Source: Citreimonas salinaria (GTDB lineage: Bacteria > Pseudomonadota > Alphaproteobacteria > Rhodobacterales > Rhodobacteraceae). From it: DNA of 64,000 bases. The notes under the pieces are model-generated. The model was not told the origin of the DNA and searched no databases. It saw nothing but the letters and a program-made list of their open reading frames with translations. A program made the position numbers and the translations under genes. This document shows, one piece after another, positions 16 to 1,134 of this stretch (positions within the stretch are counted from its first letter, which is position 1; each line of letters starts with the position of its first letter). The DNA lies in contig NZ_FNPF01000003.1 of assembly GCF_900107235.1 (NCBI RefSeq), positions 62,001 through 126,000 on the forward strand, read 5' to 3'.

Positions 16-1134
16 TCAATCGACGGTTACGAATTCGCCCACGGTCTGGTCGGGCTGACCAGGCTGGACTTCGGCCTCGTTGTATTCCGGCATCTGCTCG
101 ATCTCTTCTGCCGTCATGTCGTCGAGAACCAGGCGGCCCTCCACGATCGAGACGCGGTCCAGCGGCAGCGCGATGGTGCGCTCGCCCATGCCCAGGAAGC
201 CGCCGACGCCGGTGATCAGCACGATGGTCTCGCCGCGCATGCCGACCTGCTCGACTTCACCGACGCGCTCGTCGTCGGCACTGGTGACCGGCTGCCCTTC
301 GATGTCGGCAATGGCAATATCAGCCCAGGGCGACTCCTGGATGAATGCCACGTAGGCTACGCGATCCTCTTCCGAGGCCATCATGCCCATTTCGTCGGTC
401 TCGTAAACCAGCTCGACCGTCGGCTCGGCCTGGCTGACGTTCACGTCCGCGGCTTCGGCATCCTGAACGGTGACCTGCGGCTCGGCCTGGCTGACCTGCA
501 CGTTCGCGTCGCCGGACTGCTGGATGTCAACCTGCGCCTCTTCCTGGTTCACGTCGAGATCGGCACCCTCCGAGCGCTGGATGTCCACGTTGGCGCTGCC
601 GCTATCTTCCATGATCACGCGAGGCTCGGATTCCTGGATGTTGATCTGCGGCTCGGGGCGCACGAAGTTCACGATCGGCTCGGGCATCGCGACGTTCACG
701 TCGGGGTTGTCCTGGTTGACATCGACCGACGGGCGCGGCACGCGGATCGTGATGATCGGCTCGGGGATGCGCACGGTGACCTGGGGCTGCGCCTGCTCGA
801 CCGTGATGATCGGCGCCTGCTGCTGCACGCGGACGTTGGGCTCGGGGACCAGCACGTCGATCTGGGGCTGCGGCTGCTCGATGTCGACCTGCGGACGGGC
901 CTGGTCGACATCTACGCTGGGTTCATCGAGGGTCACCGTGACCCGGGGCTGGCCCTGCTCGACCATGACCTGGCCGCCCGCGACGTCAGCTGCCACTTCT
1001 GCTTCGCCTTCTTCGCCTTCGATGATGATGACCTCGTCGTTGGTCACGATGTCGTCGCTTTGCGCGAAGGCGGCGGTGCTCAGTGCAAGTGCGGATACCG
1101 TCCCGAGAGCGAGACCGAGAGATTTATTGAACAT
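16..1134 (-). CDS. Exported nonapeptide-repeat protein with C-terminal PRC-barrel domain
   Basis: Protein of 372 residues. It starts with a clear signal peptide (basic MFNK, hydrophobic core, AFA cleavage near residue 24). A short acidic stretch follows, then about 18 tandem 9-10 residue units from about residue 64 to 238 of the form x-V-x-V-x-x-x-x-P (SVDVDQARP, QVDIEQPQP, QVTVRIPEP). The alternating hydrophobic residues suggest an extended beta or solenoid-like rod. Residues about 275-345 resemble a PRC-barrel fold (GERTIALPLDRV). I chose the ATG at 1134 because GGAGG lies 9 bases upstream and the signal peptide starts there; an in-frame codon at 1173 has neither. Function is unknown; a periplasmic or envelope role is inferred. 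A GGAAC-N16-CGTT promoter-like site lies 52 bases upstream. Confidence 0.85.
   Translation of the reverse strand: MFNKSLGLALGTVSALALSTAAFAQSDDIVTNDEVIIIEGEEGEAEVAADVAGGQVMVEQGQPRVTVTLDEPSVDVDQARPQVDIEQPQPQIDVLVPEPNVRVQQQAPIITVEQAQPQVTVRIPEPIITIRVPRPSVDVNQDNPDVNVAMPEPIVNFVRPEPQINIQESEPRVIMEDSGSANVDIQRSEGADLDVNQEEAQVDIQQSGDANVQVSQAEPQVTVQDAEAADVNVSQAEPTVELVYETDEMGMMASEEDRVAYVAFIQESPWADIAIADIEGQPVTSADDERVGEVEQVGMRGETIVLITGVGGFLGMGERTIALPLDRVSIVEGRLVLDDMTAEEIEQMPEYNEAEVQPGQPDQTVGEFVTVD

Follow-up and report, generated by a model that had tools for sequence, protein, structure and literature searches.

The window, the whole 64,000-nucleotide stretch of contig NZ_FNPF01000003.1 of the Citreimonas salinaria genome that was analysed, was found to encode a protein of 372 amino acids that combines a predicted signal peptide, a tandem nonapeptide repeat and a PRC-barrel, and whose gene is present in this genome in a single copy. 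In a group of aligned homologues the first 13 units of the repeat are a domain of fixed length, better conserved than the PRC-barrel itself, and the gene is preceded by an EcfG-type promoter motif. The product is probably a stress protein of the cell envelope that has received little study, a reading drawn because a general-stress-response promoter precedes the gene. It may well be an EcfG-linked exported protein of the envelope that uses a beta-strand spacer of defined length to display a PRC adaptor; our judgement of this proposal is evenly balanced, and its basis is what was observed, namely the repeat, its fixed length, the PRC-barrel and the promoter motif. The fixed-length block and the stress promoter go beyond what an earlier note on this DNA had seen.

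The gene was identified from its open reading frame, its translation and a PRC Pfam match, and occupies 16–1134 on the minus strand, as do all of the features described below, with its ATG at 1134. A ribosome-binding site (GGAGG, 1142–1146) was seen in the sequence 7 bases 5′ of the ATG. Inspection by eye revealed a predicted signal peptide (amino acids 1–24, 1063–1134) with an AxA cleavage site before QSDD; this is typical enough to bear out the export that had been proposed earlier. Neither a transmembrane anchor nor a lipobox was seen on reading the protein sequence, which leaves the earlier description of a repeat reaching from the membrane without a basis here. A short acidic part (amino acids 25–53) lies between the signal peptide and the repeat domain (amino acids 53–172, 619–978), which consists of 13 units of exactly nine residues with the form P-x-V-x-V-x-Q-x-x. 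It is followed by less conserved C-terminal units (amino acids 173–243, 406–618) with a spacing of 10 or 9 residues and few prolines. A linker separates the whole repeat (amino acids 54–243) from the PRC-barrel (amino acids 273–342, 109–318), after which there is an acidic tail. The neighbouring genes, named from reading their translations, are tgt upstream and lon downstream, all on the same strand, and this order was also found at five of 71 homologue loci (L032–L035 and L039). No RNA element was found near the gene, and scans for sigma-70 promoters and terminators revealed nothing useful.

The nonapeptide repeat is real. It extends from amino acid 54 to approximately 243 (approximately 406–975) and comprises 20 full units of 9–10 residues and one partial unit; the first 13 are exactly nine residues long, and the later ones are 10 or 9 residues long and have lost most of their prolines. 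The earlier note had placed about 18 units at 421–945, so its array stands with slightly wider limits and a higher count, and its statement that the repeat makes up half of the protein agrees with the 190 of 348 mature residues found here. Autocorrelation at lag 9 was 0.48 for V/I/L and 0.68 for P. The pattern P-x-[VIL]-x-[VIL] occurred 13 times, compared to a mean of 1.5 and a maximum of 6 in 5000 shuffles. The longest run of exact nine-residue spacing was 14, against a maximum of 5 in 2000 shuffles, which confirms the tandem organisation; the next best run among the 320 open frames of the window was 4. The only DNA-level repeats seen were one of 57 bases (19 residues) at 421–547 with 75% matches, a weak one of 27 bases and one of 9 bases outside the repeat region, from which we infer that most of the array is old.

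A scan of genome contigs gave 71 homologue loci, mainly in Rhodobacterales, and including Paracoccus, Azospirillum, Roseomonas relatives, Microvirga, Hyphomicrobiaceae and Halomonas/Vreelandella. The window protein was aligned with the proteins of 46 of the 71 loci, chosen for an easily aligned block, and among these 47 proteins the block corresponding to amino acids 53–172 had a length of 120 residues in all but one, where it was 121; the distant relatives, whose arrays are longer or shorter (for example L109, L011 and L082), are outside this count. Mean column entropy over the 47 proteins was 1.04 in this first block, whereas the later units reached 1.67 and the PRC-barrel 1.65. The fixed length and the low entropy of the block indicate that the repeats are not freely expanding in the aligned group. 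Conservation was also seen at the level of single units, such as the IPEP unit in alignment A1. This alignment contained six of the 18 loci that remained from an initial search, which had yielded 29 loci besides that of the window, after 11 without the repeat in the chosen frame were left out. No paper on the nonapeptide repeat was found in the open-access PMC literature.

Structure prediction agreed in part with the earlier note, which had proposed a short strand and a proline turn per unit within a rod or beta-solenoid. The AlphaFold model of the 13-unit block in isolation contained ten strands, each five or six residues long and in most cases spaced by nine, which supports strand-turn units as the likely organisation of the repeat. 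The rod or solenoid was not demonstrated. The isolated block had a mean pLDDT of 66.6 (approximately 50–78 by blocks of ten) and a pTM of 0.34, and in the mature protein (mean pLDDT 65.9) blocks of ten fell at 42–71 in the first 13 units and mostly at 32–41 in the later ones. Foldseek with the repeat model returned nothing at E ≤ 0.001 in PDB or BFVD, and VIA-align returned one chain with a best Z of 2.0. The search for a solved relative of the repeat gave a best E of 0.55, to ATP synthase subunit b, and this candidate was rejected. Mean z for unit similarity over 26 arrays, which include L122, a repetition of part of the L109 gene, decreased from 1.45 at lag 1 to 0.63 and 0.26 at lags 2 and 3. 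There was no peak at lag 2 or 3, hence no sign of two or three units per turn; this coil arrangement was rejected, and the geometry is unreadable.

We tentatively read the block as a folded domain that has not been described before, built of proline-capped beta repeats of nine residues and constant in length; it would serve as a standard envelope spacer in the alphaproteobacterial general stress response and have exchangeable ends. Somewhat less probable is a repeat that lacks a folded core and serves as a flexible, proline-rich tether in a mainly extended state, for which nothing but length and charge would matter. The low pLDDT values and pTM given above would fit such a tether, as would the very acidic mature protein (74 D+E compared to 15 K+R). 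Free tethers, however, usually drift in length and sequence, whereas this block had undergone no net change in length in 46 of the 47 aligned proteins and was conserved above the level of the PRC-barrel; its V-x-V alternation is strict, and the conservation of individual units such as the IPEP unit also argues against a tether.

We consider it unlikely that folding of the strands requires assembly into a trimeric fibre or an amyloid-like stack, which a monomer prediction would miss. The short regular strands, mostly nine apart in both AlphaFold models, the Q conserved in many units and the weak confidence of the monomer models are all consistent with assembly. On the other side, fibre structures were not matched in the PDB and BFVD searches, a result that leaves room for such a fold, and nearly all of the early units contain a proline, which disfavours amyloid-type stacking.

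It is similarly doubtful that the repeat and the N-terminal part of DUF6470 (PF20074) are one module, which would make the protein a known uncharacterised domain fused to a PRC-barrel. The earlier note had known no named domain with this repeat, which is close to correct: none of the Pfam or NCBIfam models matched the repeat of the window protein above its cut-off, although several homologues pass that of DUF6470. The window protein scored 20.6–21.2 bits against a cut-off of 28.9, and its best stretches (11–52 and 15–53) cover approximately a quarter of the 178-position profile. A match at E ≤ 0.01 was found in 45 of the 47 aligned proteins, and seven entries scored above the cut-off (L011 and L143, which are the same gene, L161, L079, L109, L110 and L124), with best stretches of approximately 35–58 of the 178 positions, within the first 50 or so. 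The resemblance depends on direction, as the repeats of two homologues scored 55.2 and 48.8 bits forward and 13.8 and 11.9 bits reversed; a pure composition effect was rejected because the reversed repeats lose the match. A strand motif common to the repeat and the DUF6470 N-terminus is likely. Against a common module stand the score of the window protein, the small part of the profile used by the homologues above the cut-off, and the P-x-V-x-V-x-Q pattern, which if shared could produce the match alone. DUF6470 is presumably a Firmicutes family that includes Bacillus subtilis YviE, near flagellar genes, and B. subtilis was one of four control genomes with a match. No paper on DUF6470 was found in the open-access PMC literature.

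The RTX nonapeptide beta-roll likewise has nine-residue tandem units with strands, but its GGxGxDxUx motif is absent from the window protein, and an RTX relationship was rejected. In L108, no frame held more than a single match to G.G.[DN].[LIVF]. The antisense frame of RTX (GGxGxDxLx) arrays was observed to mimic the repeat, for example as PPVTVSLPS, at L112, L114, L115, L116 and L155–L159; significant profile matches at such frames should be filtered. The CAP_C beta-helix model (PF08603) scored 16.2–17 bits, below its cut-off of 23.8. The repeat block would supply a family model that is missing at present.

In alphaproteobacteria, EcfG is the sigma factor for the general stress response. A perfect GGAAC-N16-CGTT motif of the EcfG promoter type was matched at 1187–1211 (C31:63187–63211), from 77 to 53 bases upstream of the ATG. 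Analysis of the 150 bases upstream of the homologues, the starts of which were set by a simple rule and may in some cases be wrong, revealed GGAAC-N17-GTT at 18 of the 59 alphaproteobacterial loci and at none of the 12 gammaproteobacterial ones; many of these loci are related, and the counts are therefore not independent. Other spacers from 8 to 26 gave 0–3 loci each, and shuffles gave a mean of 0.11 and a maximum of 1. The 59 loci include L093 and L100; dropping both and allowing N in the spacer gave 19 of 57. GGAAC was the commonest of all 5-mers upstream of the alphaproteobacterial homologues (39 of 57, the next reaching 26) in a count without L093 and L100, in which the chosen frame is another gene, and without L102, which is not alphaproteobacterial. 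Its reverse complement was found in 16 of the 57, and GGAAC itself in none of the 12 gammaproteobacterial upstream regions; no such promoter was present upstream of the Halomonas homologues.

The C. salinaria genome contained 66 sites for the motif compared to 25 for a reversed control pattern, and two NepR matches with PhyR/EcfG-like matches beside them. Both features by which membership of the EcfG regulon was assessed, a GGAAC-N16/17-cGTT promoter and the presence of PhyR and NepR in the genome, were found. L103–L107 (C16 near 285 kb and C39 near 33 kb) represent two separate PhyR/NepR/EcfG-type loci in this one genome, and a motif site (C39:33337–33361) lies just before a NepR match. Fifty loci were chosen for the NepR search; with L034 left out, 49 genomes were searched, and NepR was found in 44 of the 49; it was absent from the three Halomonas genomes tested and from those of L079 and L098. 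The motif was present at L079. Although NepR was present in their genomes, a set of roseobacter homologues (L041, L043–L046, L048, L049, L052 and L053) showed no GGAAC in the 150 upstream bases, and EcfG-type control of the homologues therefore appears to be widespread and not universal.

Two regulon studies list PRC-barrel genes among EcfG/RpoE2 targets, in Sphingomonas (PMC6599016) and in Sinorhizobium (PMC6180224), and the target lists concerned name them by domain only (PMC6599016, PMC6180224). Sphingomonas #1478 (PMC6599016) and Sinorhizobium SMb20522 (PMC6180224) are described there as likewise combining a PRC-barrel with an EcfG/RpoE2-type promoter. In Rhodobacter sphaeroides, according to a further study, PhyR acts in membrane stress (PMC5830050).

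The PRC-barrel of the window protein, which the earlier note had also named, was confirmed as a member of PF05239 (38.6 bits against a cut-off of 21.2, E 1.1e-9) and was modelled with a pLDDT of 84–97 by blocks of ten. Its nearest solved chain was 3htr_B (Z 8.0, rmsd 3.2, 80 residues aligned); 3htr, RimM and photosynthetic reaction centre subunit H share the fold of this C-terminal domain, with best Z values of 8.0, 7.5 and 7.3 respectively, but their structural matches cover none of the 13-unit block. A C-terminal PRC-barrel was found in 43 of the 47 proteins of alignment A2 (E ≤ 0.01). In L011/L143 (one gene) and L161 an OmpA domain replaces it and follows a long version of the same kind of repeat; the window protein differs from these OmpA-like envelope proteins in ending in a PRC-barrel. 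The N-terminal parts also varied, with DUF4142 in L092 and L094, EF-hands in L110, and a pair of cysteines, seen on reading the sequences, in L013, L019, L161 and others; that the cysteine-pair part is helical is a guess. L005 had a second PRC-like domain at its N-terminus (PRC_RimM, E 8.2e-5, under its cut-off), and L005 and L058, which are the same kind of gene, have a PRC–repeat–PRC layout. In the folded-domain reading the exchangeable ends would possibly be PRC or OmpA on one side and DUF4142, an EF-hand, the cysteine-pair part or a second PRC-like domain on the other, an extension we hold equally tentatively. Because the length is fixed and the end domains are swapped, the idea of a spacer can be tested directly.

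In the mechanism that we propose, EcfG would transcribe the gene, as suggested by the promoter, its conservation and a genome that contains PhyR and NepR. The gene product would be exported via its signal peptide and would stay in the periplasm or envelope, where the block of 13 strand-plus-proline units would form an extended beta spacer, holding the C-terminal PRC-barrel adaptor away from the contact of the N-terminal end. The PRC-barrel may bind an envelope partner, by analogy with PRC-barrels elsewhere and with the relatives that carry OmpA in its place, and the net effect would be an envelope reinforced or organised under stress. Several observations weigh against the proposal: the modest to low confidence of the repeat model and its failure to match a solved fold, the roseobacter homologues without GGAAC, L079 with the motif but no NepR match, the Halomonas homologues without such a promoter, and the sparse occurrence of the repeat domain. 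We know of no established role for the PRC-barrel genes of general stress regulons, and a conserved, unnamed extra domain could give such proteins a role in the envelope.

A profile of the repeat (A3, from which L042 was left out for its ambiguous bases) matched 27 of 295 genomes of the family and 11 of 385 genomes of the class at E ≤ 0.001. Matches at RTX-array loci accounted for five of the 27 (G071, G088, G096, G116 and G188) and four of the 11 (G374, G400, G637 and G670) and were dropped because antisense RTX frames mimic the repeat; further matches in G110 (family) and in G305 and G398 (class) were doubtful. After removal of the doubtful matches, approximately 21 of 295 family and 5 of 385 class genomes remained, with the genome of the window in both counts. 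A higher count from an earlier search (105 of 295) includes many PRC-only matches. As the repeat domain is so sparse in the family, its function is not essential. A phage origin was rejected, as there was no PHROGs family and no phage match. Genome G638, outside the family, has several different genes that combine the repeat with PRC (L109, L124 and L126). L102 encodes an Ignavibacteria protein of 848 amino acids; it matches no Pfam domain at E ≤ 0.01, and its VxV-proline repeats look related. The 13.5 kb Paracoccus plasmid H4 (NZ_CP040756.1) carries a homologue of the chromosomal gene, and all seven of the plasmid homologues found were annotated only as PRC-barrel proteins.
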